This document shows positions 402 to 12,979 of a stretch of 13,195 nt of DNA, in pieces. Positions within the stretch are counted from its first letter, which is position 1, and each line of letters starts with the position of its first letter. Below the pieces are notes generated by a model. The model had not been told where the DNA came from. It searched no databases and was given only the letters and a program-made list of their open reading frames with translations. Made by a program: the position numbers and the translations under genes. This DNA is from JALSIF01 sp026981635 [NCBI: bacterium] (GTDB lineage: Bacteria; 4484-113; JALSIF01): contig JALSIF010000235.1 of NCBI GenBank assembly GCA_026981635.1, positions 1 through 13,195 on the forward strand, written 5' to 3'.

Positions 402-1553
402 GTGATGGGACTTCCGACCTACGAGGACGAAAAGGCGGTTGAGCTGATTGACGCCCGGGTAATTGAGCTGCTTAAGAAGATGCTTGAGGGGGAGGTCGGG
501 CGCCTTGACCCCTACTTTGATCCCAACGCCAAGTATGGCTATTCTTACCCGGACGCCAACGTCGTCCTCAAGCGCCTGCACGGCGAGGAGGTGGAGGTGC
601 TGGAGCTTCTTCATAAGCTTGGCTATCTGGTGGGCACCTTCCACGACAAGGTCTATCTCTGTCCCTTCTGCCAGAGTCACCATCTCCACCTGAGGCTCTC
701 CTGTCCCGAGTGCAACTCCACCGACATCCGTCAGGCCTCCATGCTCCACCACTTCAGCTGTGGGCACGTGGACCTGGAGGAGCGTTTCCTGCAGCGGGGA
801 AGGCTCATCTGCCCCAAGTGCTCGCAGGTGCTCAGGCACATCGGGGTGGACTACGAGCGCCCCAGCCGGGTCTGGCACTGCAACCAGTGTGGCTACATCT
901 TCCAGCACCCGGTGGAGAGCTTCCACTGCCACCGCTGCGGGCGTCAGTCCAGTAAGGAGCAGGTGGTGGAGAAGCGGATAATGAGTTTTACCGTCAGCCC
1001 CGAGGCGGCGGTGGCCATAGAGGATGGCAAGCTCTATGACTTCAAGTACTACCAGGTGGTGAGCGACGGGCTCACCCAGCTGGTCAACATGAGCTATTTC
1101 CGCGAGCAGGGGCTCAAGGAGGTGGCCCGCTCGGTCCGCTATGGAAACCAGGTTACCTTCGTGCTTATCCGCATCGTCAACTTCCCCGAGCTGGTCTCCG
1201 CCTACGGCCAGACGGAGGCGGAGCGGCTGTTTCGGGACTTTGCCCAGATCACCAACAACACCCTAAGAAGCTGCGACCTGGTGGCCCGCTATGACGATGT
1301 GAGCCTGATCATCCAGCTTCCCGAGACCGGGCCGGACAGCGCCATCTTTGCCATTAACCGGATCAGCTACAACCTGACCCGCTCGGACATCTGGCTGGAG
1401 TTCACCGACCCGCGGCCGGTTATCAAGGTGAGCATGGTGAGCATTCCAGAGGACGCCAAGGACTATGACGAGCTACTTAAGCTTCTGGAGGAACGCATTG
1501 AGACCAGTGGGCTAGTGGTGGGGATGACCGAACAGTCTGGTGCAGGCAGGTGA
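402..1553 (+). CDS. Zinc-ribbon (TackOD1-like) protein with degenerate GGDEF domain, putative c-di-GMP receptor
   Basis: This is a 383-residue cytoplasmic protein with no signal peptide or membrane segment. Residues 1-80 have no motif I recognise. Residues 87-179 are rich in metal-ligand pairs: CPFC 87-90, CPEC 101-104, C120-G-H122, CPKC 137-140, C160/C163 and C176/C179. The run from C120 to C179, with IGVDY at 147-151, resembles the TackOD1 domain (recalled family, not searched). Residues about 245-370 look like a GGDEF fold. The signature is lost: after ARY, DDVSL (298-302) replaces GGDEF, so cyclase activity is unlikely. The I-site RSCD (289-292) is kept at the canonical five-residue spacing, as in PelD-type receptors. 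GGGGAG at 389-394 precedes the GTG start; ATG at 405 is an alternative. The next gene overlaps by four bases, implying coupled translation. The inferred role is regulation of the adjacent synthase. Confidence 0.72.
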   Translation: MMGLPTYEDEKAVELIDARVIELLKKMLEGEVGRLDPYFDPNAKYGYSYPDANVVLKRLHGEEVEVLELLHKLGYLVGTFHDKVYLCPFCQSHHLHLRLSCPECNSTDIRQASMLHHFSCGHVDLEERFLQRGRLICPKCSQVLRHIGVDYERPSRVWHCNQCGYIFQHPVESFHCHRCGRQSSKEQVVEKRIMSFTVSPEAAVAIEDGKLYDFKYYQVVSDGLTQLVNMSYFREQGLKEVARSVRYGNQVTFVLIRIVNFPELVSAYGQTEAERLFRDFAQITNNTLRSCDLVARYDDVSLIIQLPETGPDSAIFAINRISYNLTRSDIWLEFTDPRPVIKVSMVSIPEDAKDYDELLKLLEERIETSGLVVGMTEQSGAGR

Positions 1554-2869
1554 TTGATCTATTTATAGATTTTGTCAAGTCAGTAGTTGACTTTCTGGTC
1601 CTGGGGGTGGAGCAGTTTTACGCCCTGGACTGGCAAACCCTGCTGGTCCTATTTTGGTTCACCTTTATCTTTGACCTGCCACGCTATCTCATCCCCGACC
1701 TACTGGCCTGGATGTGGGACATACTCTGGGGGGTGGAGAATCGGCTGAGACCGCCCAGGGAGAGAGACCCGGTTCTGGAGCGGAAACCACTAGTGTCGGT
1801 GATTGTGCCGGCGCTGAATGCAGAAGCTACCATCGCCTCCACCATAGAGACCATTCTGGAAACGGACTGGCCCAACAAGGAGGTCATCGTGGTGGACGAT
1901 GGATCGGACGACCGTACCTTCGCCATCGCAAGCGACTATGCCCGCCGAGACCGGAGGGTGAAGGTGTTTCGCAAGAAGTACCGCGGGGGTAAGGCCAGCG
2001 CCCTGAACCTTGGCTTTCAGGCCTCCCGCGGCGAGTTCATCATCGCGGTGGACAGCGACACTTCCTTTGAGCGCGAATCCATAACCAACCTGATTCGCCG
2101 CTTTGAGGATCCCCGAGTGGGGGCGGTAAGCGGAAATCTTAGGGTCAAAAACCAGGACAAATCCCTCTGCACCCGTCTGCAGGCCTGCGAGTATTTACAG
2201 ACGATTTCCATCGCACGAATTGTTCTTTCCTCCTTAAATCTGCTGATGGTGGTATGCGGTGCTTTTGGGGCCTTTCGGCGGGATGTTCTAGTGCAGACTG
2301 GGGGCTGGGACCCGGGGATCGGCGATGACTCAAACATGACGGTAAAGGCGAGGAAGCTCCGTCCACGGGTGGCCTTTGCCCCCGATGCGCGGGCCTATAC
2401 CTCGGTGCCGGAGACCTGGACCAAGCTCTGGGTGCAGCGCAAGCGGTGGGACAAAAACTTCGTCAGAAACCGCCTCAAGAAGCACGCCAACATCCTTAAC
2501 CCAACCCGCTTCCATCCCTCTAATCTTGGATCGGTATCCATTGAGTTTTTTTATCGGGTTCTCTTGCTCGTAGCCTTCTACGCCTACTTGGTCTATCTAT
2601 TCCTGTTCTTCCCCCACATGCTTCCCCTAGTGGTCGTAGCCACTTTTGTCATCTATGGACTAGCTAACTATGTGAGCCTGTTTGCGGCGGTGATGGTGAG
2701 CAAGCAGTACGACCAGCTTGAGCTGGTGCTTTATGCGCCCCTCATGCTCTACTACCGTCTCTTCCTCAGGGCGGTGAGAACGGTGGCCTACATTGAGGAG
2801 TTCCTGCGGCTAAACTACCGCGATCCCTTCTATCCCACCGAGGTCTGGGAGAACATCCCCCAGTGGTAG
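1550..2869 (+). CDS. Processive family-2 glycosyltransferase, membrane exopolysaccharide synthase
   Basis: The predicted protein has 439 residues and the D,D,D,QxxRW layout of processive GT2 enzymes (cellulose, PNAG, hyaluronan and chitin-oligosaccharide synthases). One N-terminal hydrophobic segment (about 28-50) precedes the catalytic domain. DDGSD (116-120) and DSD (168-170) should bind the UDP-sugar and metal; GDD (258-260) carries the catalytic base; QRKRW (296-300) holds the acceptor. Residues 331-410 contain two to three membrane helices that would form the export channel with the first. The stretch GDDSNMT to QRKRWDKNF is closer in pattern to hyaluronan synthase/NodC (GDDRxLT, QxxRWxKS) than to BcsA (TED), suggesting an amino-sugar polymer; this is inference. 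No PilZ domain is present, so any c-di-GMP control must come from a partner, plausibly the preceding gene, whose stop overlaps this GTG start. The polymer identity is unknown. Confidence 0.88.
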   Translation: MIDLFIDFVKSVVDFLVLGVEQFYALDWQTLLVLFWFTFIFDLPRYLIPDLLAWMWDILWGVENRLRPPRERDPVLERKPLVSVIVPALNAEATIASTIETILETDWPNKEVIVVDDGSDDRTFAIASDYARRDRRVKVFRKKYRGGKASALNLGFQASRGEFIIAVDSDTSFERESITNLIRRFEDPRVGAVSGNLRVKNQDKSLCTRLQACEYLQTISIARIVLSSLNLLMVVCGAFGAFRRDVLVQTGGWDPGIGDDSNMTVKARKLRPRVAFAPDARAYTSVPETWTKLWVQRKRWDKNFVRNRLKKHANILNPTRFHPSNLGSVSIEFFYRVLLLVAFYAYLVYLFLFFPHMLPLVVVATFVIYGLANYVSLFAAVMVSKQYDQLELVLYAPLMLYYRLFLRAVRTVAYIEEFLRLNYRDPFYPTEVWENIPQW

Positions 2870-3783
2870 TGTGGGGTAGTCCGCCCAGGATGATCCCGCG
2901 GATAAGCCGGCAGTGGGCAACAGCAATCCTGGTGCTCTTTTTCTGGGGGAGCCTTTCCTCTCCTTCCCTCGCCCAACCGGAAGAGGTGGAGGTGGCCGCC
3001 TGGGCCTGGCTAAGCTCAAGGAACGGGGAGAGGAGCCGAGCGCTCAAAGAGGATGACCTTAGGGTGGCAAGTGTGCTCGGGGTGAGGAGAGTGTGGCTTT
3101 CGGTGGGGGCAGGCTTTGCCGGCCAGGAATCACCTGATCCCCGCTTTGGGCGCCTCTTTCGTCGCGCCCTGGAGATCTTTCCCCGGGTGGGGATGCTGAT
3201 GGGGGAGGCGGGCTGGATCGGCCGGCCCCAGCTGGGGCGGGAGAGGGTGAGGCGGGCGGTGGTCTGGTTCTGGGCGAACTTTCCCAGCCACCGCCTGGAA
3301 ATAAACCTTGATGTTGAGCCCCAGCAGCTTGGGGAGTGGCAGCAGGAGAGGGGTAGGGAGGAGCTGGTGGGGGGGATGGTGGAGGCGGTCTGCGGGGTGG
3401 CCAGGGAGCTCAAGCTGCTTGAGCCCGATGCCACCCTCATCGTCTCCCTAAACCTATCCCTGATGGAGCGCTACCGGCCCGGCCTGGGAGAAGAGCTTGC
3501 CCACTGCGGGGTGGACGGGATCGCTCTGATGGACTACCGGCGGGAGCTGGGGGAGATGCTTAAGGTGGTGGATAAGGCTGACTGTGCTAAGTTTTTACCC
3601 TACTGGTTGGGGGTAAACTTGAGGCCAGAGGCTCCAGCCAGGTTTGGGGGGAGAGTAGGGAAGCGGGCGCTGGTTGAGCTCTCCGCTTTGCTGGCGAAGG
3701 GGGCCGGCAGCTGCTTTCGGGGGGTTGCTATCCACAGCCTAAACTATCTTTCCCCCGAGCAGGGGGAGAGGGGCGGCAAGTAG
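2863..3783 (+). CDS. Secreted TIM-barrel protein, glycoside-hydrolase-like (GH18-like motifs)
   Basis: I do not recognise a named family. An N-terminal signal peptide is clear (ISRQ, a hydrophobic core, then SLA-QP with cleavage near residue 37). The mature part shows eight candidate beta strands in order: VEVAAWAW, RVWLSVG, VGMLMG, LEINLDVEP, TLIVSLN, DGIALMDYR, FLPYWLGV and GVAIHSLNYL, as expected of a (beta/alpha)8 barrel. At strand 4 the GH18 pattern DxxDxDxE becomes L145, N148, D150, E152, keeping the last Asp and the catalytic Glu. MDYR (223-226) resembles the GH18 strand-6 MxYD motif. Four cysteines (177, 215, 241, 284) could form two disulfides, fitting the periplasm. Lying between synthase and export genes, it may trim or edit the polymer. 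The start is uncertain: GTG 2863 overlaps the synthase gene, while ATG 2890 gives the cleanest signal peptide. It could be an inactive binding protein. Confidence 0.65.
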   Translation: MVVWGSPPRMIPRISRQWATAILVLFFWGSLSSPSLAQPEEVEVAAWAWLSSRNGERSRALKEDDLRVASVLGVRRVWLSVGAGFAGQESPDPRFGRLFRRALEIFPRVGMLMGEAGWIGRPQLGRERVRRAVVWFWANFPSHRLEINLDVEPQQLGEWQQERGREELVGGMVEAVCGVARELKLLEPDATLIVSLNLSLMERYRPGLGEELAHCGVDGIALMDYRRELGEMLKVVDKADCAKFLPYWLGVNLRPEAPARFGGRVGKRALVELSALLAKGAGSCFRGVAIHSLNYLSPEQGERGGK

Positions 3784-3803
3784 GGAGGAGGAAAAGTTAG
3801 CCG

Positions 3804-5177
3804 ATGATGGGTAATCTGCCGTGGGCGGCACCCGCGATGCGTATCGCACTTGGCCTGGTGGTGGCTGGGCTGATCGTCTCTGGCGGGGGGAGGGCCTGGG
3901 CAGACAGCCCAGTCAAGGTCACCCTTCCCGAGCTGATTGAGCTTGCCATGGGCAGCTCATCCCGCATAAAGACCGACTACTACAACCAGCTGGTCTCCTA
4001 CTACGATCAGCTTGATCCGCGTTTCTCGCCGGAGCTGGATCTTTTGATCACCCAGAGCTTCCGCTCCCGTGCCCGGCGGCTTGATGTGGTCAACTCACCA
4101 CCCGGTTTTCCCAACCAGTTCATCATCGGGCGCAAGTCAAACCTTTCGGTGGCCTTTGAGGCGGAGGTTCCACTAGCCCTCTCGGGGATTGAGCGGCTCA
4201 GTAAGCGGGCGGCCCGCTGGGAGTATGCCCAGGTCCATTTCCTCTATCTTCGCAACCGGGAAGAGGTGGCGGCTGAGGTCACCGATCTCTTCTGGCGGGT
4301 GGTAATCGCCAAGCACCGGGACGGCCTCTATGCCGAGCTGATTGATCTTTATGAGCAGACCCTGAACAGATACCGGCAGCGCTACGAGGGGGGGGAGGAG
4401 TTTGGCTACAAGGTGAGGGAGGCAGAATTTTTGCTGGCTGAGGCCCGCCACCAGCGGAGGGTAAACCAGCTTGAGATGGAGCGGGATGTCTTTGCCCTGA
4501 GCCAGCTTACCGGGACTAGCCTGAGGGCGGAGTGGTTTCCCTATGAGCTTCCCCCCCTGCCGGAGAGGGTTGAGGAGGTGGACTTCTCCACCCTTAAGCG
4601 ACGGGTGCTTGAGAAACTATCCCGCATCGCCCCCCGGCTGGAGGAGGAGCTTACCAGCGAGGAGCTGGGTGGGGGCCTGCGCCTCTCCTGGCTCACCCCT
4701 TCCCTCACCCTGACTGGCCGGCTGCAGAACCGGGGAGACTTTGCCCGCCAGGAAAAGGGGAAGGTGATCGGGCAAATAAACCTCACCGTCCACTTCAACC
4801 TGAGGGAAAAGCGGGACAAGAGTGCCGATCGGCAGCGGGCCCGCATCAAGCAGCGGCAGGCCAACCTGATCCGCAACCGACAGCTTTTGATAGGTGACCT
4901 GGCCGATGCCTGGGTGCAGCTTGCTGAGGACATGGACTGGCTAAGGCGGGTCTATCGGGCCCAGAAGGCCTGGCTGGAGGAGGAGCTCCGGGTGGCCCGG
5001 CTCCGCTACGAGGGTGGACTGGGCACCTTTGAGAACTACAAACTGAAACAGGAGCAGCTCATCGCCCTGGAGCTTGAGCGGCTGGACCGGATCAGCCGCG
5101 TGCAGGTGAGCAGGGTGGGGCTGGAGTACTGGCTGGAGATGCAGTTCTCCAGCGGGGAGGTGAAGGAAAGTGGTTGA
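3804..5177 (+). CDS. TolC-like outer-membrane efflux protein
   Basis: This 457-residue protein fits the outer-membrane factor family, whose trimers form an outer-membrane barrel and a periplasmic alpha-helical tunnel. A signal peptide ends at AWA-D (cleavage after residue 33). ATG 3837 (residue 12) may be the true start, since it begins directly at the signal sequence; ATG 3804 has a strong GGAGGAGG at 3784-3791 but with long spacing. The internal duplication of the family is visible: long helices containing RYEGG recur at 193-197 and 401-405, each followed by a helix rich in Glu, Ala and Leu. The segments at 70-125 and 295-335 are rich in alternating residues and probably form the barrel strands. 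It is followed, with an eight-base overlap, by an HlyD-type adaptor. With no ABC transporter or RND pump nearby, the partner is inferred to be the GT2 synthase, making this the exit channel for the polymer. Confidence 0.85.
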   Translation: MMGNLPWAAPAMRIALGLVVAGLIVSGGGRAWADSPVKVTLPELIELAMGSSSRIKTDYYNQLVSYYDQLDPRFSPELDLLITQSFRSRARRLDVVNSPPGFPNQFIIGRKSNLSVAFEAEVPLALSGIERLSKRAARWEYAQVHFLYLRNREEVAAEVTDLFWRVVIAKHRDGLYAELIDLYEQTLNRYRQRYEGGEEFGYKVREAEFLLAEARHQRRVNQLEMERDVFALSQLTGTSLRAEWFPYELPPLPERVEEVDFSTLKRRVLEKLSRIAPRLEEELTSEELGGGLRLSWLTPSLTLTGRLQNRGDFARQEKGKVIGQINLTVHFNLREKRDKSADRQRARIKQRQANLIRNRQLLIGDLADAWVQLAEDMDWLRRVYRAQKAWLEEELRVARLRYEGGLGTFENYKLKQEQLIALELERLDRISRVQVSRVGLEYWLEMQFSSGEVKESG

Positions 5178-6243
5178 GCGCTATCCACGGCCCAGGCCGA
5201 GCCTCTGGGAGAGGCTCTGGCGAGTGGCGCAGCTTATCTTCCTGCTGGCCATGCTTGCCCTCATCGTCACCCTATTAATTAGCGGATTTGTCATCCGCGA
5301 CTTTGAGAAGAAGGCCTTTGAGACGGTGGAGCCCCGCTACTACTACGGCCTGCTGGAGCAGATTGACTATGAGATCACTGCACCGGTCTCGGGCACCGTT
5401 GAGGAGGTTGGAGTGGAGGAGGGGGAGAAAGTGCTAGCCGGCATGGAGCTAATCCGGCTGGTCCCCCCACGCCGGGAGGAGACGGTGCGGCGGGGCGGGG
5501 GGGCCGGCGGCGCTGGAGGCGGGGCGGCCGCTCCCCCCAAGACCGGGCCTGGCGGCTCCAGCGCAGGAGGAGGGAGCAGATCCCTTGCCGGGCGCTACTC
5601 GGTGGAGGAGCTCAGGGAGCTTATTGTTGACACCAAGCTGAAGCTCAGGGAGGAGGAGCTTCAGGCGGAGCGCTACCGCCAGCGGGTGGAGGAGCAGAAG
5701 CGGAAGCTGGATAAACTCACCCGCCTGCTCAAGGAGGGGGCCGCCACCCAGGCAGAGGTAGAAAAGGCGCGCCAGGCGCTGGAGGAAGCTGAGTTTGACC
5801 TAAGACTTTCCGAGCTTCGCATCGCCCGGCGGGAGGTGGAGCTGGAGCGCTATGAGCGGCTGCTGAGGATAAAGCTGGGTCTATCCAGTCGGGCGGGCAG
5901 ACAGCTGCCCGATGGAAGTTACGCCATTTTCTCCCCCGTCCCCGGGCGGGTGGTCTCGGTGGAGGTGCAGCCAGGGGAGTATGTGATCCGGGGAAAGAGG
6001 CTGATTGAGCTGGTACGCTCCGACCTTTACCGCCTCTCCTTCCCGGTGAGCCAACGGATGGCCCTGTTTATCAACCCTGCCTCCAGCGTCAAGGTTGAGG
6101 TGGTCAAGGGCGAGAAGGTGGTAAGGAGCCTAACCCTGAAGATAGATCGCATGGACCGAAGCTGGATCAGCTTTCTGGTGGAGGCGGAACAAGTTGAGCC
6201 TGAGCCGGGGCTGGTCTTTCGCATGGACCTCGCCCAGTTTTAG
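5170..6243 (+). CDS. HlyD-family periplasmic adaptor (membrane fusion protein)
   Basis: This 357-residue protein anchors in the inner membrane by one helix (about 21-42) and extends into the periplasm to link an inner-membrane machine to TolC. The first lipoyl half is at 66-100 (ITAPVSGTVEEV, then GEKVLAGMEL). A Gly/Ala/Pro-rich linker (about 107-138) follows, then a long charged coiled-coil hairpin (143-238), the second lipoyl half (259-291, FSPVPGRVVSVEVQPGEYV) and a beta-barrel region to the end. The low-complexity linker between lipoyl half and hairpin is unusual. No PilZ domain is present, unlike Alg44. The GTG start overlaps the tolC-like gene by eight bases, with GGAGG at 5156-5160 upstream. 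Gene order suggests it connects the GT2 synthase to the TolC-like channel, an arrangement with a precedent, as I recall, in cyanobacterial cellulose secretion. Confidence 0.85.
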   Translation: MVERYPRPRPSLWERLWRVAQLIFLLAMLALIVTLLISGFVIRDFEKKAFETVEPRYYYGLLEQIDYEITAPVSGTVEEVGVEEGEKVLAGMELIRLVPPRREETVRRGGGAGGAGGGAAAPPKTGPGGSSAGGGSRSLAGRYSVEELRELIVDTKLKLREEELQAERYRQRVEEQKRKLDKLTRLLKEGAATQAEVEKARQALEEAEFDLRLSELRIARREVELERYERLLRIKLGLSSRAGRQLPDGSYAIFSPVPGRVVSVEVQPGEYVIRGKRLIELVRSDLYRLSFPVSQRMALFINPASSVKVEVVKGEKVVRSLTLKIDRMDRSWISFLVEAEQVEPEPGLVFRMDLAQF

Positions 6244-6253
6244 TCCCGGGGTG

Positions 6254-6280
6254 GGTTCTACGGACTCCGGCTTGTAGAAT
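6254..6280 (+). promoter_or_regulatory. Putative promoter/operator of the M42 peptidase gene, same motif as 319-345
   Basis: GGTTCTACGG (6254-6263) and TTGTAGAAT (6272-6280) are separated by eight unrelated bases, exactly as at 319-345; 18 of 27 positions agree, all within the two blocks. Here the arms TTCTAC (6256-6261) and GTAGAA (6274-6279) form a perfect six-base inverted repeat. TAGAAT (6275-6280) can serve as a -10 box; no clear -35 is seen. Just downstream, GCCCT-CTTTC-AGGGC (6283-6297) could fold as a small hairpin in the leader. Confidence 0.4.
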
Positions 6281-6310
6281 CAGCCCTCTTTCAGGGCAAA
6301 CCCAAACGCG

Positions 6311-7436: not shown

Positions 7437-8882
7437 TCAGCTGGGCGGGCCGGTCTCCGTCTGGAACCAGAGCTCGTTGGAGATGCTTACGAAGCCCTGG
7501 GGGTTGCACTGATCGTCAAAGGAGAAGTTGGCCGGGTCGCCCTGGTAGGCAACCACCTTGAAGGAGGCGATGGAGGGGTCGGAGACGCCGTTCAGTTGGC
7601 CCGGGGTGGTGTCGTCAAAGCCGTTTCCGGTGCCCAGCTTGAAGAAGGTGGGACAGAGGTCAAAGTTGACCTCGCTGGTCACCTCGGTGCCCGGCTGCTT
7701 GTCGGAGGTGGTCCAGACGGAGAACTGGAAGGGGAAGTCGGAACCGTCGGCGGCAAAGACGTAGGCGTTGTCAAAGCTGCCCGCGGTCTCGGGGCTGCCC
7801 GGGTCCTGGGGGGAGAGGCTGGGGGATTCCAGGAAGAGGAAGAGGCTTACCGGAGCACCCAGAAGGTCCAGCACCGGACTGGCATGGCTGGGGTCGGGAG
7901 TGCCCGCTGCCATGGGTACAACCTGAATGTAGCGGTTGGCCGGGTCAAGGGCACCCATGGGAGGTGGGAAGGAGTAGGCGGCAAAACCCAGCGCATCGGC
8001 AAAGGAGTCAACCGGCAGGCTGAGGGTGTCGGTGGTGGTGGAGCTGTTTAGTGCAGGAATGGAAAAGCTGTCTACCACCGTGGTAGGTGGATCAGTGTCT
8101 CCCTGAAGGATCTGGTAGGCGTCCACAAACTGGCCGAAGTTGCTCACTACGATGGTGGCGTCATTGAAGCCGATGTCGCCACTGTTGTCGTAGTCCACAG
8201 GCGGGGGAGCCTGACCGGCTCCCAGACCGGCGGGCAGGCCGAAGTTGGAGACCAGCAGGGTCATGTCGTTGAAGCCCACGTCGTGGCTCTGGTCTCCGTC
8301 GCCCTTGAGCCGCTCAGAGAACTTCACCCTCCCTGCGCCGCTGTCAAAGACCAGGCCGTCAAACTCGCCACTATACTCCACGTTGGGAGCACCCAAGGCG
8401 CTGAAGCTCTTTACAGCACGGCGGGGCTCAAAGCGGATCCGCACCTCCACCCCGGCAGGCAGAGGATCCAGCCGGGGGCGAGCGATGCCCACCGCCGCCA
8501 CCCCGGGGACCGGTTCGGTGGCCAGCACCACCATACCCTCGGTACCACTGAGGTCAAAGACCGGCTCCATCTCGGGCACCGGCTGCTTGACTACCGCGTA
8601 GAGGTGGGTAGTGGGCTGGCGGGTGCGAAGGAGAACTTCTCCTCCCTCTTCACTTAGCTCAATCTCTGGAGGAAGACTGGAGAGGGGGTTGCCCTCCAGG
8701 TCAAAGGCCACCACCTCAAGTCCCTCTGGGGGGGCAAAAAGGATGTCCTGCAGGGTAAGACCCGAGGGGGTGGCTCCACCATTCTCACCGACCTTTCCCT
8801 CCCGGGCCGATCCGCCACAGGAGGAGACCAACAGGGCGAAACCGAAAAGAATCGCCCCCACCAAGAAAGCTCTCGTTCTCAT
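7437..8882 (-). CDS. Lipoprotein with two dockerin/EF-hand-like repeats
   Basis: This 481-residue protein begins with a lipoprotein signal: a hydrophobic stretch then LVSSC-G, with C22 as the predicted lipidated cysteine, so the mature protein should be membrane-anchored outside the cytoplasm. Residues about 40-190 look like beta-rich extracellular domain sequence with no motif I can name. Residues 195-250 hold two tandem dockerin-type repeats: DGDQSHDVGFND followed by VSNFG, and DYDNSGDIGFND followed by VSNFG. Each has Asp/Asn/Ser at calcium-loop spacing. The C-terminal half (about 255-481) is rich in Ser, Thr, Pro, Asp and aromatic residues, with two cysteines (C410 and C449) that could pair. 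Function is unknown; calcium-stabilised adhesion or a surface structural role is possible. It follows the 2-oxoacid dehydrogenase genes on the same strand but is unrelated in theme. Confidence 0.75.
   Translation of the reverse strand: MRTRAFLVGAILFGFALLVSSCGGSAREGKVGENGGATPSGLTLQDILFAPPEGLEVVAFDLEGNPLSSLPPEIELSEEGGEVLLRTRQPTTHLYAVVKQPVPEMEPVFDLSGTEGMVVLATEPVPGVAAVGIARPRLDPLPAGVEVRIRFEPRRAVKSFSALGAPNVEYSGEFDGLVFDSGAGRVKFSERLKGDGDQSHDVGFNDMTLLVSNFGLPAGLGAGQAPPPVDYDNSGDIGFNDATIVVSNFGQFVDAYQILQGDTDPPTTVVDSFSIPALNSSTTTDTLSLPVDSFADALGFAAYSFPPPMGALDPANRYIQVVPMAAGTPDPSHASPVLDLLGAPVSLFLFLESPSLSPQDPGSPETAGSFDNAYVFAADGSDFPFQFSVWTTSDKQPGTEVTSEVNFDLCPTFFKLGTGNGFDDTTPGQLNGVSDPSIASFKVVAYQGDPANFSFDDQCNPQGFVSISNELWFQTETGPPS
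8133..8300 (-). repeat. Coding region of the tandem dockerin-like calcium-binding repeats
   Basis: This segment encodes residues 195-250 of the lipoprotein. The two copies share the consensus D-x-D-x-S-x-D-x-GFND-x-T-x-x-VSNFG (the second with N-S-G in the loop). They are separated by a Pro/Gly/Ala-rich spacer containing AGQAPPP. In dockerin type I and related EF-hand-like repeats, the Asp at positions 1, 3, 5, 7/8 and 12 bind calcium. Here D195, D197, S199, D201 and D206, and D230, D232, S234, D236 and D241 fall in that pattern. The pair sits inside the protein, not at its C-terminus. Confidence 0.65.
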
Positions 8883-8929
8883 GGTCCCTACCTACCTTCC
8901 CTTGGTCTATTTCCGATTGTAGAGGGCCT

Positions 8930-8953
8930 ATTATACCCACGATGGGATTTATA
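8930..8953 (-). promoter_or_regulatory. Candidate weak promoter for the lipoprotein gene
   Basis: On the - strand, a perfect TATAAT (complement of 8930-8935) sits about 47 bases upstream of the lipoprotein start, and a second TATAAA (complement of 8948-8953) lies just before it. No TTGACA-like -35 is apparent at 16-18 bases from either. No terminator is seen between the dihydrolipoyl dehydrogenase stop and this gene, so read-through from the upstream operon is also possible. Confidence 0.35.
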
Positions 8954-8954
8954 C

Positions 8955-10367
8955 CTATCTGTTTATTGCGTGGATCATCTTGCCATCCACCCCCAGGGCG
9001 GCCTCGTGGACCGCTTCGCCCAGGGTGGGGTGGATGCGCACTGCCGCCTGGAAGTCCTCACAGGAGGCGCCAAACAGCAGGGCCATGGTGGCCTCGTTGA
9101 TCAGGTCGGAGGCGTGGGGGCCGATGATGTGGACCCCCAGAAGCTCGTCGGTCTTGGCGTCGCCGATCACCTTTACGAAGCCGTCTGCCTCGCCCAGGGA
9201 GAGGGCGCGGCCGTTGGCGCCGAAGGAGAACTTGCCGGTCTTTATCTCATGGCCCTTCTCCTTGGCCTCCTCCTCGGTCATTCCCACGTAGGCGATCTCG
9301 GGGAAGGTGAAGACGGCGGCAGGGACGGTGAAGTCAAAGTGGGCCCAGTTGCCGGCAAGCTTCTCGGCTAGCTGATATCCCTCGTGGCTGGCCTTGTGGG
9401 CCAGCATGGCCCCGCCGATCACATCACCGATGGCGTAGATGTGGGGCTGGGAGGTGGTGAGGTGTTCGTCCACCACCACAAAACCCTTCTCGTCCACCTT
9501 GACCCCGGCCCGGTCTAGGGCCAGGTCCTCGGTGTTTGGCACCCGGCCCACCGCCACCAGCACCTTGTCAAAGCTTTCGCTGCCGGCAAAGCCGCCCTCG
9601 GCGGCCGGCTCCATGGTCACTTTGACACCTTTGCTGGTGGTCTTTACCTGGGTAACCTTGGTGTTGGTGCGGATCTCAATCCCTTGGCGCTTGAAGAGCT
9701 TGGCCGCCTCCTTGCGGATGTCCTGGTCAAGGGTGGCAAGGATCTCAGGGAGGAACTCCACCACCACCACCTCGGCGCCCAGGGCGTTATAGACCGAGCC
9801 CAGCTCCATGCCGATGTAGCCGCCTCCGATCACCAGCAGGCGCTGAGGAAAGTCGGTGGGGTCGATCCCCTCGTCGCTGGAGATCACCCGCTTGCCGTCA
9901 ATACCTAATCCGGGCAGGGTGCGGTAGGTGGAGCCGGTGGCAACGACGAACTTCTCCGCAGTGATCCGCTGGCTCTTCCCCTCCGGGGTGGTTATCTCCA
10001 GGGTGTGGGGGTCAACAAAGCTTGCCGCGCCAAAGATGAGGTCGGCCCCGTTCTTCTCCAGGAGAAGCTTCACCCCGCCGGTGAGGCGCTTTACGATGTT
10101 TAGCTTGTGCTGGTTTAGCTTCTTAAGGTCAACCTTGACCTCTCCCACCACGATCCCCTGCTCGGGGGCCACCTCCTTTATGTGGTGGTAGAGGTGGCTT
10201 GCGTCAAGCAGCACCTTGGAGGGGATGCAGCCCACATTGAGGCAGGTTCCGCCCCAGTACTGCTTTTCCACCACGGCGCACTTTAGGCCCAGCTGGGCGA
10301 GGCGGATGCCGCAGACATATCCTCCGGGACCGGCGCCAATCACCACCACCTGATAGTCAAATGCCAT
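8955..10367 (-). CDS. lpdA: Dihydrolipoyl dehydrogenase (E3 of 2-oxoacid dehydrogenase complex)
   Basis: This 470-residue flavoprotein reoxidises the dihydrolipoyl groups of E2 and passes electrons through FAD and a redox disulfide to NAD+. The FAD-binding motif GAGPGGY is at 11-17, the active disulfide C42/C47 in GGTCLNVGCIPSK, the NAD-binding GGGYIGMELG at 181-190, a second FAD motif in IYAIGDVIGG, and the C-terminal catalytic His-Glu pair H446/E451 in HPTLGE. The last motif comes from the partner subunit of the homodimer. Length and motif order are typical. GAGGTGA lies a few bases upstream of the ATG. It is the last of four consecutive complex genes, 65 bases after the E2 stop, and is presumably co-transcribed with them. 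A dedicated E3 in the operon suggests stoichiometric supply to this complex, though E3 is often shared by several complexes. Confidence 0.95.
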   Translation of the reverse strand: MAFDYQVVVIGAGPGGYVCGIRLAQLGLKCAVVEKQYWGGTCLNVGCIPSKVLLDASHLYHHIKEVAPEQGIVVGEVKVDLKKLNQHKLNIVKRLTGGVKLLLEKNGADLIFGAASFVDPHTLEITTPEGKSQRITAEKFVVATGSTYRTLPGLGIDGKRVISSDEGIDPTDFPQRLLVIGGGYIGMELGSVYNALGAEVVVVEFLPEILATLDQDIRKEAAKLFKRQGIEIRTNTKVTQVKTTSKGVKVTMEPAAEGGFAGSESFDKVLVAVGRVPNTEDLALDRAGVKVDEKGFVVVDEHLTTSQPHIYAIGDVIGGAMLAHKASHEGYQLAEKLAGNWAHFDFTVPAAVFTFPEIAYVGMTEEEAKEKGHEIKTGKFSFGANGRALSLGEADGFVKVIGDAKTDELLGVHIIGPHASDLINEATMALLFGASCEDFQAAVRIHPTLGEAVHEAALGVDGKMIHAINR

Positions 10368-10432
10368 CGGAGTTCACCTCGGTCAGATCAAGAATTCCCA
10401 CTTCCTCCGACCCTCGGTAGCCCGGTGGGCGG

Positions 10433-11914
10433 CTAGATCTGAAGCAGCATCCACTCGGGGTTCTCCAGCTGCTCCACGATGTAGGCGTTGAACTCCACCG
10501 CATAGACCCCATCAATCAGGCGGTGGTCAAAGGCCACCGTGAGGTAGACCATGTCGCGCACCACGATCTGGCCGCTCTCGTCCACCACCGGGCGCTTCTT
10601 GATGTTGTGGACGCCGAGTATTCCCACCTCGGGGTAGTTGATGACCGGGCAGCTGATCAGGGTGCCGAAGCCGCCGGCGTTGGTGATGGTGAAGGTGCCC
10701 CCTTGCAGGTCGTCCAGGGTGAGCTCGCGGTTTCTGGCCCGTTCGGCAAGCTCGGCCACCTCCTGGCTTAGCTCCACGATGGACTTGCGGTCGGCGTCCT
10801 TGATGTTGGGCACCACCAGGCCGTCGTCGGTGTTTACCGCGATGCCGATGTTGTAGTACTTCTTAAGAATTGCCTCGGAGTGGTCGTCGGTGATGGAGGC
10901 GTTGAAGTAGGGGAACTTCTTGAGGGCGGCCACCACCGCCTTGATGAAGAAGGCCATGTAGGTGAGCTTGACCCCGTAGCGGGCCTGGAACTCCTCCTTG
11001 TACTTCTCCCTAAGTGCCACCAGCTTGGTGAGGTCGGCCTCCTGGATGTCGTAGGTGTGGGCGGCGGTGTTCTTGGACTGCTGCATGCGGTCGGCGATGG
11101 TCTTTCTGATGCGGGGGAGCTTCACCCGCTCCTCAGGGCCATACTCGCCGGTGACCAGCACGCCCAGCCGCTCGGGCACCACCTGCTCCTTGGCGGGGGC
11201 GGCGGGAGCGGCGGCGGGGGTGGGGGCGCCCACCTGATACTTCTCAACCTCGCCCGCCTCAATGATGCGCTCAATGTCCACCTTACGAATGCGGCCGCCC
11301 CGGCCGGTCCCCTGGATCTTGGCCGGGTCCAGGTTGTACTGCTCAATCAGCCGGCGCACCGCGGGGCTTAGGAAGGTGGCCTTGGCCCCGTCGCCCGCAG
11401 CGGGGGCGGCCGGAGGCGGCGGAGGCGGTGGGGCCTCCTCCTTCTTCTCCTCCTCGGCAAACTTGGAGAAGTCCACCTCAATTACCTCGCCGACGGTGGT
11501 TGCGGCATACCCTCCCAGGTCCTCGTCCACCTCGCGGGGGATGCCGCCGGCGGGGGCCTCCTGCTTGGCCTCCTGATCGCCGGCGCCCGCCTCCATGTAG
11601 GAGGTGTCAATGGGAGCCGAGCTCGCCTCCGCCCCCATCTCGCCGGGCTTGATGGAGCCAGGCTCGTACTCCTCGCCCTCGCGGGCTATCACCCCGATGA
11701 TCTGCTTTACGTTGACCACCTCGCCTTCCTTGGCGAACTTCTCCACCAACACTCCTGAGGCGGGCGAGGGGACCTCCATCTCAATTTTGTCGGTCTCAAT
11801 GGTGACGATGGGCTCGTCCATCTCCACCTTGTCGCCCACCTCTTTGAACCACTTGCCGATCTCGCCCTCAACTACCGACTCGCCAAGTTCGGGCACGATG
11901 ACCTTTACAGGCAT
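10433..11914 (-). CDS. Dihydrolipoamide acyltransferase (E2 of 2-oxoacid dehydrogenase complex)
   Basis: This 493-residue core subunit transfers the acyl group from lipoamide to CoA. The single lipoyl domain spans 1-77 with the lipoylated lysine K43 in ETDKIEMEV. A long linker (78-180) follows, first acidic and Gly-rich, then a run of seven prolines and Ala/Pro. The peripheral-subunit-binding domain is at 181-220 (LSPAVRRLIEQ and GTGRGGRI), followed by another Ala/Pro linker (228-242). The catalytic domain runs from about 262 to the end with H464 and D468 in DHRLIDG. Trimers of this domain assemble the 24- or 60-mer core. The substrate is unresolved among pyruvate, branched-chain 2-oxoacid and 2-oxoglutarate types; the E1-alpha/E1-beta layout makes 2-oxoglutarate less likely. 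AAGGAG lies nine bases before the ATG. The longer linker explains a length above the family's common range of about 400-440. Confidence 0.92.
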   Translation of the reverse strand: MPVKVIVPELGESVVEGEIGKWFKEVGDKVEMDEPIVTIETDKIEMEVPSPASGVLVEKFAKEGEVVNVKQIIGVIAREGEEYEPGSIKPGEMGAEASSAPIDTSYMEAGAGDQEAKQEAPAGGIPREVDEDLGGYAATTVGEVIEVDFSKFAEEEKKEEAPPPPPPPAAPAAGDGAKATFLSPAVRRLIEQYNLDPAKIQGTGRGGRIRKVDIERIIEAGEVEKYQVGAPTPAAAPAAPAKEQVVPERLGVLVTGEYGPEERVKLPRIRKTIADRMQQSKNTAAHTYDIQEADLTKLVALREKYKEEFQARYGVKLTYMAFFIKAVVAALKKFPYFNASITDDHSEAILKKYYNIGIAVNTDDGLVVPNIKDADRKSIVELSQEVAELAERARNRELTLDDLQGGTFTITNAGGFGTLISCPVINYPEVGILGVHNIKKRPVVDESGQIVVRDMVYLTVAFDHRLIDGVYAVEFNAYIVEQLENPEWMLLQI

Positions 11915-11992
11915 GGCTCCTCACTCCTTATTTTTCAAGTCCTCGCCCCACCGCTCCGCCGGCGGGGGGCCGTGAGCTGGCCGGTTCCTGAA

Positions 11993-12979
11993 TCAATACT
12001 CAAAGAGCTGCTTGGCCTCCTGGTAGATCCGCTCCACGCTGGGCAGGTAGAGCTGTTCCATCTTGGGGTGGAAGGGGACCGGGGTGTCGGGGGCGGCCAC
12101 CCTCACCACCGGGCCGTCCAGGTAGTCCCAGCACTCCTCCACGATGGCGGAGGCGATCTCGCCGCCGATGCCGCCGTACTTGGGCGCCTCGTGGACTACC
12201 ATAGCCTTGCCGGTCTTCTTTACCGACTCCACGATGGTCTCCATGTCCAGGGGCAGCAGGGTGCGAAGGTCCACCACCTCAACGTCGATCCCCTCCTCCC
12301 TTAGCTTCATTGCCGCCTGCATGGAGCGGTGGAACATGAGCCCAAAGGAGAAGATGGAGAGGTGCCTTCCGGGCTTCTTCACGTCGGCCTTGCCGATGGG
12401 GACCACGAAGTCATCGTCGGGCACCGGCTCCTTGATGGTCCGGTAGAGCTTCTTGTGCTCAAAGTAGAGGACAGGGTTATTGTCGCGGATGGCCGCCTTG
12501 AGCAGGCCCTTGGCGTCGTAGGGGGTGGAGGGGACCACCACCTTGAGGCCGGCCACGTGGCAGTACCAGGCCTCGTTGGACTGGGAGTGGTACATGCCGC
12601 CTCCCACGTCGCCGCCGTAGGGGCAGCGGATGGTGATGGGGACCGGCCAGGTGCCGCCGGTGCGGTAGTAGATCTTGGCCGCCTGCTGGCAGATCTGGTC
12701 GTGGGCCCCGCCGATGAAGTCGGCAAACTGGATCTCGGCGATGGGCCGCATCCCCATCAGCGCCGCCCCGGTGGCGATGCCCACGATGGCGCTCTCCGAG
12801 ATGGGGGTGTCCAGGCAGCGGTAGAAGCCGAACTCGTCCATCAGGCCCTTGGTGGCCTTGAAGACGCCGCCGTAGAGCCCCACGTCCTCGCCCAGCACGA
12901 AGACGTTCTCGTCGCGCTGCATCTCCTCGCGCTGGGCCTCAATGATGGCGTCGATGTAGGTGATCTTTCTCATCCCCAT
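11993..12979 (-). CDS. 2-oxoacid dehydrogenase E1 component, beta subunit
   Basis: This 328-residue subunit pairs with E1-alpha to form the thiamine-diphosphate-dependent alpha2beta2 decarboxylase. The beta subunit supplies E62 of DTPISES, expected to activate the cofactor. GEDVG (30-34), YHSQSNEAW (130-138, with H131) and the C-terminal transketolase-type domain (DLRTLLPLD, VVHEAPKYGG) are visible. The run PSTPYDAKGLLKAAIRD and the FEHKKLYR motif are like branched-chain 2-oxoacid and pyruvate/acetoin E1-beta proteins; I lean slightly to branched-chain but would not assign it. The length is normal. AAGGAG (complement of 12990-12995) stands ten bases before ATG 12979; ATG 12973 is a possible alternative. 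It follows the E1-alpha gene by 63 bases and precedes E2 by 78 bases with no clear terminator in between, consistent with one operon. Confidence 0.93.
   Translation of the reverse strand: MGMRKITYIDAIIEAQREEMQRDENVFVLGEDVGLYGGVFKATKGLMDEFGFYRCLDTPISESAIVGIATGAALMGMRPIAEIQFADFIGGAHDQICQQAAKIYYRTGGTWPVPITIRCPYGGDVGGGMYHSQSNEAWYCHVAGLKVVVPSTPYDAKGLLKAAIRDNNPVLYFEHKKLYRTIKEPVPDDDFVVPIGKADVKKPGRHLSIFSFGLMFHRSMQAAMKLREEGIDVEVVDLRTLLPLDMETIVESVKKTGKAMVVHEAPKYGGIGGEIASAIVEECWDYLDGPVVRVAAPDTPVPFHPKMEQLYLPSVERIYQEAKQLFEY

Follow-up and report, generated by a model that had tools for sequence, protein, structure and literature searches.

A TackOD1-linked GT2, HlyD and TolC-type gene module as a probable synthase-dependent exopolysaccharide system

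What would be made, and by which route would it leave the cell, where a TackOD1 regulator is encoded in one operon with a membrane glycosyltransferase and two proteins of efflux families? The operon in question lies on contig JALSIF010000235.1 of the bacterium JALSIF01 sp026981635, a single contig (13,195 nt, referred to here in its full length as the window) of a 1.75-Mb draft genome that is 85% complete. Five co-directional open reading frames (ORFs) on the forward strand encode, in order, a regulator (402–1553), a membrane synthase of glycosyltransferase family 2 (GT2; 1550–2869), a glycosidase-like TIM barrel (ORF3; 2863–3783), a TolC-type outer-membrane channel of the OEP family (3804–5177) and a HlyD-type periplasmic adaptor (5170–6243). 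With these starts three junctions overlap, by 4, 7 and 8 nt, and the remaining one is a 20-nt gap, which bears out a first-pass annotation of this DNA that had described five genes in one direction with three of four junctions overlapping. Two start codons, read from the sequence, are uncertain: ATG 405, the likely start of the regulator, equals GTG 402 in quality, and ORF3 begins at GTG 2863 or at ATG 2890, the latter of which would abolish the second overlap. The analysis described below indicates that this module is real, widespread and linked, and that it is likely to be a synthase-dependent exopolysaccharide system, in which GT2, HlyD and TolC-type proteins would export an N-acetylhexosamine-type product under the control of TackOD1 and with a glycosidase bound to the channel.

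Linkage was assessed in a sample of 385 genomes chosen without regard to the system and searched with PF18551. TackOD1 scored above the cut-off in 12 of them, and a GT2 gene adjoins it in nine of these carriers (the window and eight of the 11 others); in five of these loci (L026, L027, L028, L030 and L032) a protein composed of an OEP channel followed by a TIM barrel is encoded close by. The fused channel gene of L027 (4456–6758, reverse strand) is split into frames of 133 and 613 amino acids, and its relative L028 has a single frame. A scan with five TackOD1 proteins returned 322 related places, of which the best 80, selected for likeness to the query, were retained. These 80 named relatives, 11 others and the window make up 92 loci, 91 of them distinct, as L031 duplicates the record of L043.

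Among the 80 named loci, GT2 is found in 75, HlyD in 74, the TIM barrel in 67, OEP in 62 and a fused OEP–TIM protein in 60. In the 48 loci whose regulator is flanked on either side by more than 5.5 kb, GT2, HlyD and TIM occur together in 46 and the fused protein in 43; the two exceptions are L053, which has no module part besides TackOD1, and L096, which is without GT2. The linkage that the first-pass annotation had proposed to look for in related genomes is thus conserved. Two main gene orders are observed, OEP/TIM–HlyD–regulator–GT2 (47 loci) and regulator–GT2–OEP/TIM–HlyD (nine loci), and the window has the second. The GT2 start lies no more than 20 nt from the regulator stop in 66 of 75 loci, a tight spacing that suggests direct control of the synthase by TackOD1.

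GT2, HlyD and TIM occur together in carriers that, judged by tree labels and the titles of the records, belong to Bacteroidota, Balneolota, Pseudomonadota, Thermodesulfobacteriota, Myxococcota, Aquificota, Calditrichota, KSB1, Planctomycetota and Omnitrophota, so that the module spans about ten bacterial phyla. It also occurs on plasmids. A fused system is present on a plasmid of Aeromonas caviae, and the Aeromonas fused protein matches two plasmid records, both from A. caviae; at the DNA level, neither the GT2 nor the TolC gene of Aeromonas matched any of the E. coli genomes searched. A plasmid of Methylocystis iwaonis (L127) encodes all five parts as separate proteins (regulator, GT2, HlyD-like, TIM and TolC, in this order), of which the HlyD-like protein matches the profile at 1.7e-26 and Pfam weakly. 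The regulator, GT2 and HlyD are present on plasmids of Phyllobacterium and Palleronia. A further protein family neighbours the module from outside in 19 loci (L049, L050, L055 and others), mostly of Bacteroidota, and some of its members resemble response regulators by their first residues.

The channel and the barrel, which form one protein in most of the named loci, are split in the window. The first-pass annotation had listed the TIM barrel as a separate part, and this holds for the window but not for the 60 loci in which it is joined to the channel. Pairwise likeness of the fused barrels to the window barrel is weak (among nine proteins, the best phmmer values are 0.0004 to 0.0009), and a protein search of 60 genomes with the window barrel as query matched only itself; the family became visible only through the fusions and profiles. 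A profile of 72 barrels that excludes the window matches ORF3 at 4.5e-11 in a search of five proteins, and therefore the window represents a split form of a usually fused protein. In the same search space, window-free profiles match the window OEP at 5.8e-8 and its HlyD at 1.1e-26, the rows of these profiles having been gathered with seeds that included the window. Together with the co-occurrence in 46 of 48 loci, these matches speak for more than a coincidental grouping.

The predicted structure of the fused protein from Crocinitomix catalasitica (pLDDT 86.2) folds first as TolC and then as a barrel. In Foldseek its best match is TolC, and the first match to its barrel is PgaB (2.1e-6), followed by chitinases. 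The 50 rows of the VIA list for this model comprise two TolC-like channels, four PgaB/BpsB entries and 44 rows that are, by title or recall, GH18 chitinases, chitinase-like proteins or SleL; the barrel neighbours (GH18-type and PgaB) have Z scores of 17.4–19.3. One further alignment consists of 52 fused proteins picked by hand. The fused channel of Roseivirga spongicola (L050, 4253–6517) has a LysM domain at its N-terminus, which suggests a peptidoglycan anchor, and a planctomycete locus (L062) has a separate TIM barrel (2860–3729; GH18, 1.2e-4) in addition to a fused one (8287–10398).

The export parts of the window itself are recognizable by domain matches. Its channel matches Pfam OEP (2e-15) over two stretches and has a hydrophobic leader (segment 5–29), and its adaptor matches Pfam HlyD_3 (1.9e-13) and has one N-terminal membrane helix (hydrophobic segment 14–46). 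HlyD and OEP are efflux families, and the genome has further HlyD and OEP genes, as might be expected if the export half were a conventional tripartite efflux or type I secretion assembly working with a pump from another locus, with GT2 and the regulator as mere neighbours. We compared E. coli AcrB, EmrB, MacB and YbhF/R/S with chosen ORFs of the 92 loci, a comparison that covers near relatives of these six proteins within the locus stretches. No such relative lies inside the module in any of the 92 loci. A pump-like match occurs somewhere in the stretch in 13, and a pump-like gene is adjacent on the same strand in three: L071 has an ABC ATPase in this place, and L080 and L086, symbiont loci that are closely related to each other, have an RND gene. 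The earlier statement that the operon lacks an ABC, RND or MFS pump stands within this scope, and near relatives of the six proteins show no consistent pairing with these HlyD and TolC homologues. Moreover, regulator and HlyD genes are found together in 74 of 80 loci, and 60 of these 80 encode the channel as one protein with a glycosidase-like barrel, so that a borrowed-pump arrangement appears very improbable. The module instead encodes a dedicated outer-membrane path, linked HlyD and OEP, in the same operon as its synthase, as expected of a synthase-dependent system.

The window GT2 (Pfam GT2, 4.5e-37) contains DDG, DxD and QRKRW (QxxRW) motifs, the processive-type motifs (D, DxD, QxxRW) of synthase-dependent systems. 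QxxRW is present in 85 of 85 GT2s, and the DDG and DxD motifs appear in the alignment. Its best NCBIfam family is PgaC_IcaA, at 180.7 bits and under the cut-off of 422.3, so that it is no PgaC equivalog; nor is it a CelA/BcsA-type synthase with PilZ, as it scores 39.7 bits against CelA (cut-off 699.1) and none of the five operon proteins has a PilZ match (Pfam, E 0.1), in agreement with the first-pass annotation. PgaC_IcaA is also the best family for six other system GT2s (136–175 bits; seven scanned in all), and PDB profile matches of the GT2 include chondroitin, hyaluronan and cellulose synthases.

We further placed these synthases in a tree of 98 rows, which leaves aside L031, the partial GT2s of L093 and L114 and loci lacking GT2, as well as XcsA and hyaluronan synthase. 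A branch with an SH-aLRT support of 91 has all 85 GT2s linked to TackOD1 on one side; this value is under the 95 mark of the tool and was obtained in a quick search with several long branches. On the other side are E. coli PgaC, BcsA, S. meliloti NodC (750.8 bits), the presumed BgsA and nine other GT2s. The presumed BgsA, which comes from a record without annotation and was recognized by the HlyD gene beside it and by lying where it was expected, is of CelA type (408.7 bits) and branches with BcsA. The tree proposed in the first-pass annotation thus sets the system GT2s apart from PgaC, NodC and BcsA, and the placements relative to XcsA and hyaluronan synthase that it had also named fall outside these rows.

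The barrel provides a second indication of the product. ORF3 has no Pfam match. Its AlphaFold model (pLDDT 82.8, pTM 0.81) has the eight strands of a (β/α)8 fold, consistent with the TIM barrel of the first-pass annotation; its export is presumed from a leader that is visible by eye and that a hydropathy scan at 1.5 did not flag, so that the word secreted in that annotation rests on the leader. In an alignment of 41 domains (40 of the 72 and the window), D150, E152, M223 and Y225 (window numbering) are invariant, and in the model D150 and E152 lie at the end of strand 4 and M223 and Y225 at the end of strand 6. This placement corresponds to the catalytic signature of GH18 barrels, in which DxE belongs to the fourth strand and MxY to the sixth. 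The barrel profile aligns with human chitotriosidase at 0.0021, with DxE and MaY in register, and Pfam GH18 (PF00704) matches 15 of the 41 barrels at E ≤ 1 (best 1e-7), the window barrel not among them. Sequence homology to PgaB or BcsZ was sought and not found, the PgaB match (0.017, filters off) lying outside the catalytic part. The modelled fold and the conserved motifs are consistent with a GH18/PgaB-like barrel, from which we infer hydrolase activity. Since GH18 and PgaB-like enzymes act on N-acetylhexosamine polymers, the combination of such a barrel with a PgaC-like GT2 points to a polymer of the N-acetylhexosamine type.

A β-glucan, either cellulose or mixed-linkage, would be the product if the module were a system of the BgsBA or XcsAB kind. 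The BgsBA system of Sinorhizobium/Rhizobium makes a mixed-linkage glucan, pairs a GT2 with a HlyD-like protein in one operon, as the module does, and is activated by cyclic di-GMP (c-di-GMP), which the BgsA synthase binds itself through its own C-terminus (PMC5567048, PMC9495663); the word TolC does not appear in the searched portion of the main text of PMC9495663. The XcsA–XcsB–TolC model for cyanobacterial cellulose shares with the module a GT2, a HlyD-like adaptor, a TolC-like channel and a hydrolase (PMC12430437). It differs in having PilZ in the synthase and genes that are scattered in T. vulcanus, and it is a model without experimental validation according to a 2025 review (PMC12430437), the consulted part of which reports neither TackOD1 nor a channel–hydrolase fusion. 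A glucan product nonetheless seems unlikely to us: the presumed BgsA is of CelA type, whereas the seven system GT2s that were scanned score best against PgaC; the system GT2s branch away from BgsA and BcsA; and the barrel resembles families that cut N-acetylhexosamine polymers. The module may work like BgsBA and XcsAB–TolC, and by the features compared it is a member of neither. The cyanobacterial HlyD/TolC route for cellulose, which the first-pass annotation had cited as the closest precedent, does share these parts with the module, but rhizobial BgsBA is a precedent as well.

With an N-acetylhexosamine-type polymer as the favoured product, the PNAG system Pga (PgaABCD) of E. coli is among the closest known systems. 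PgaC is the nearest curated family of the synthase, structure comparison of the fused barrel lists PgaB as a neighbour, and control by c-di-GMP is usual for Pga systems. In contrast to the module, with its TolC-type channel and HlyD, Pga has PgaA, an annotated export porin, as its outer-membrane part; the TIM profile of the module has no convincing sequence match to PgaB, and its GT2s lie outside the PgaC branch. The export parts of Pel differ from those of the module too. PelD, a degenerate GGDEF protein read through RxxD, resembles the regulator of the module, whereas Pel has a soluble GT4, PelF, and its PelD is membrane-bound with a GAF domain (PMC8461298).

The regulator consists of a TackOD1 zinc-ribbon domain (residues 20–198; PF18551, 9.5e-53; 179 bits against a cut-off of 32) followed by a degenerate GGDEF domain (residues 221–365; PF00990, 2.1e-17). 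TackOD1 received its name in 2018, when it was described as an output domain of archaea that has 11 cysteines, is of obscure function and also occurs in some bacteria (PMC5847659). The archaeal response regulators share with the window protein eleven cysteines, arranged in CxxC pairs and an HxxC, and differ from it in being reported from thaumarchaeal type IV pilus loci and not with a glycosyltransferase, in the consulted part of that source (PMC5847659). In the window the cysteines are at residues 87, 90, 101, 104, 120, 137, 140, 160, 163, 176 and 179. Across 81 regulators (the 80 named and the window), the CxxC cysteines are kept in 78–81, and none retains a full GG(D/E)(E/D)F motif, the window included; the description of a degenerate GGDEF in the first-pass annotation is thereby upheld. 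RxxD is present in 50 of the 81, and RxxD together with a second arginine in 33, these being 33 of the 38 regulators, window included, outside the Bacteroidota (43 of 80, counted by hand from record titles). The I-site residues of the window are R289, D292 and R320, with a spacing that is presumably that of PleD. Two other GGDEF proteins encoded in the genome have an intact GGEEF and are likely cyclases, and one PilZ match over the cut-off lies outside the operon. The GGDEF domain of the window probably reports c-di-GMP through its retained I-site.

On a Palleronia plasmid (L126, 3274–4971) the regulator is REC-TackOD1, as in archaea, and adjoins GT2 and HlyD; in this protein a two-component input would replace GGDEF. 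Such an architecture, the absence of a GGDEF match in the Roseivirga regulator and the location of archaeal TackOD1 in response regulators (PMC5847659) all fit the idea that the regulator does not sense c-di-GMP, that TackOD1, which is constant where the I-site is variable, acts as a zinc-dependent scaffold or synthase partner, and that GGDEF is vestigial or has another ligand. This is a real possibility, to which we give somewhat less than an even chance. It has to contend with the three PleD-like residues of the window, with their retention in 33 of the 38 regulators outside the Bacteroidota and with the likely cyclases of the same genome. The putative c-di-GMP receptor of the first-pass annotation is accordingly plausible for the window but not universal.

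Several observations weigh against the favoured reading of the module as an exopolysaccharide system. The three-residue I-site is found in none of the 43 Bacteroidota regulators, and several regulators (L050 from Roseivirga; L125–L127) are without a GGDEF match. TackOD1 is absent from all nine other genomes of the class to which the window belongs, and a second sample gave one positive among 24 genomes of another phylum, too few for a rate; the distribution across genomes is patchy. Neither TIM nor OEP was matched within the 11 kb examined in Phyllobacterium and Palleronia. Two Caldisericaceae loci (L043, L044) combine TackOD1–GT2 with a short HlyD-like protein of ∼220 amino acids and have no TIM or OEP nearby, perhaps a reduced version for another envelope. 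TackOD1 has no GT2 nearby, and hence occurs outside the module, in L033, L035, L036, L053 and L084; it is thus also found in other contexts. In L084 it lies beside an ABC/HlyD exporter on the opposite strand. The relationship between the window OEP and the OEP part of the fused proteins is weak. With respect to the barrel, the best PDB sequence match of the profile is a Cellulomonas protein, 10yv (9.5e-17), deposited as a putative GH97, and the Foldseek matches to the fused model include tryptophan synthase alpha chains. When the window model is compared by fold, Cwp19 (Z 18.7) and then many GH1 enzymes are in the lead, an ambiguous outcome that does not favour GH18 in particular; the window barrel may also belong to a family outside those listed.

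Taken with the linkage and the fusion, the parts nevertheless suggest a route. The inner-membrane GT2 would polymerize a sugar nucleotide, probably an N-acetylhexosamine, and its own membrane helices would form the passage by which the chain is extruded. The HlyD adaptor would link the synthase to a TolC-type trimer that carries the chain over the outer membrane, and no ABC, RND or MFS pump would be needed because HlyD bridges GT2 and the trimer. The GH18/PgaB-like barrel, usually placed at the C-terminus of the channel, where it is expected to lie in the periplasm, and separate in the window, would trim or release the chain, and the TackOD1 protein encoded beside GT2 may switch the synthase.

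The first-pass annotation had viewed the combination as a distinct system class. By the features compared it matches none of Pga, Bcs/XcsAB and BgsBA, and we place it, as a variant, among the synthase-dependent systems. No description of the combination was found in the open PMC literature, a scope outside which subscription papers and preprints lie. We lean slightly toward a further proposal, that the module represents a separate class of exopolysaccharide machine, spread over some ten phyla and plasmids, with TackOD1 as a dedicated GT2 switch and a TolC channel carrying a chitinase/PgaB-like chain-editing enzyme at its mouth.

The surroundings of the operon were inspected as well. A scan of the window for repeats yielded nothing informative. 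Short similar stretches containing TTGTAGAAT and CAGCC, noted by eye at ∼341–360 and 6270–6290, flank it on both sides and may reflect chance or shared regulation. Downstream, a secreted-lipoprotein-like protein (7437–8882, reverse strand) has no Pfam match and contains DQSHDVGFNDMTLLVSNFG and DYDNSGDIGFNDATIVVSNFG, which resemble dockerin-type calcium repeats by eye. It is followed by a 2-oxoacid dehydrogenase run (8955–12979, reverse strand) that comprises, by domain matches, dihydrolipoyl dehydrogenase, E2 and E1-β. The E2 gene shares 57% identity with its counterpart in another genome of the class, and the GC content is 0.606 for the module and 0.629 for the remainder of the contig; misbinning is not suspected.

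In the synthase-dependent systems that have been studied well, export relies on porins or other dedicated exporters. If the proposed route is correct, an architecture known from drug efflux would be reused for long polysaccharides through a TolC-type channel, and the TolC–glycosidase fusion would tie a cutting enzyme to the exit. TackOD1, an obscure output domain since 2018, would gain a concrete partner and, should the module indeed be a separate class, this archaeal orphan domain would gain a function. Cultured carriers, namely Crocinitomix catalasitica, Roseivirga spongicola, Prolixibacter, Chromatocurvus halotolerans and Methylocystis iwaonis, make the system testable now.

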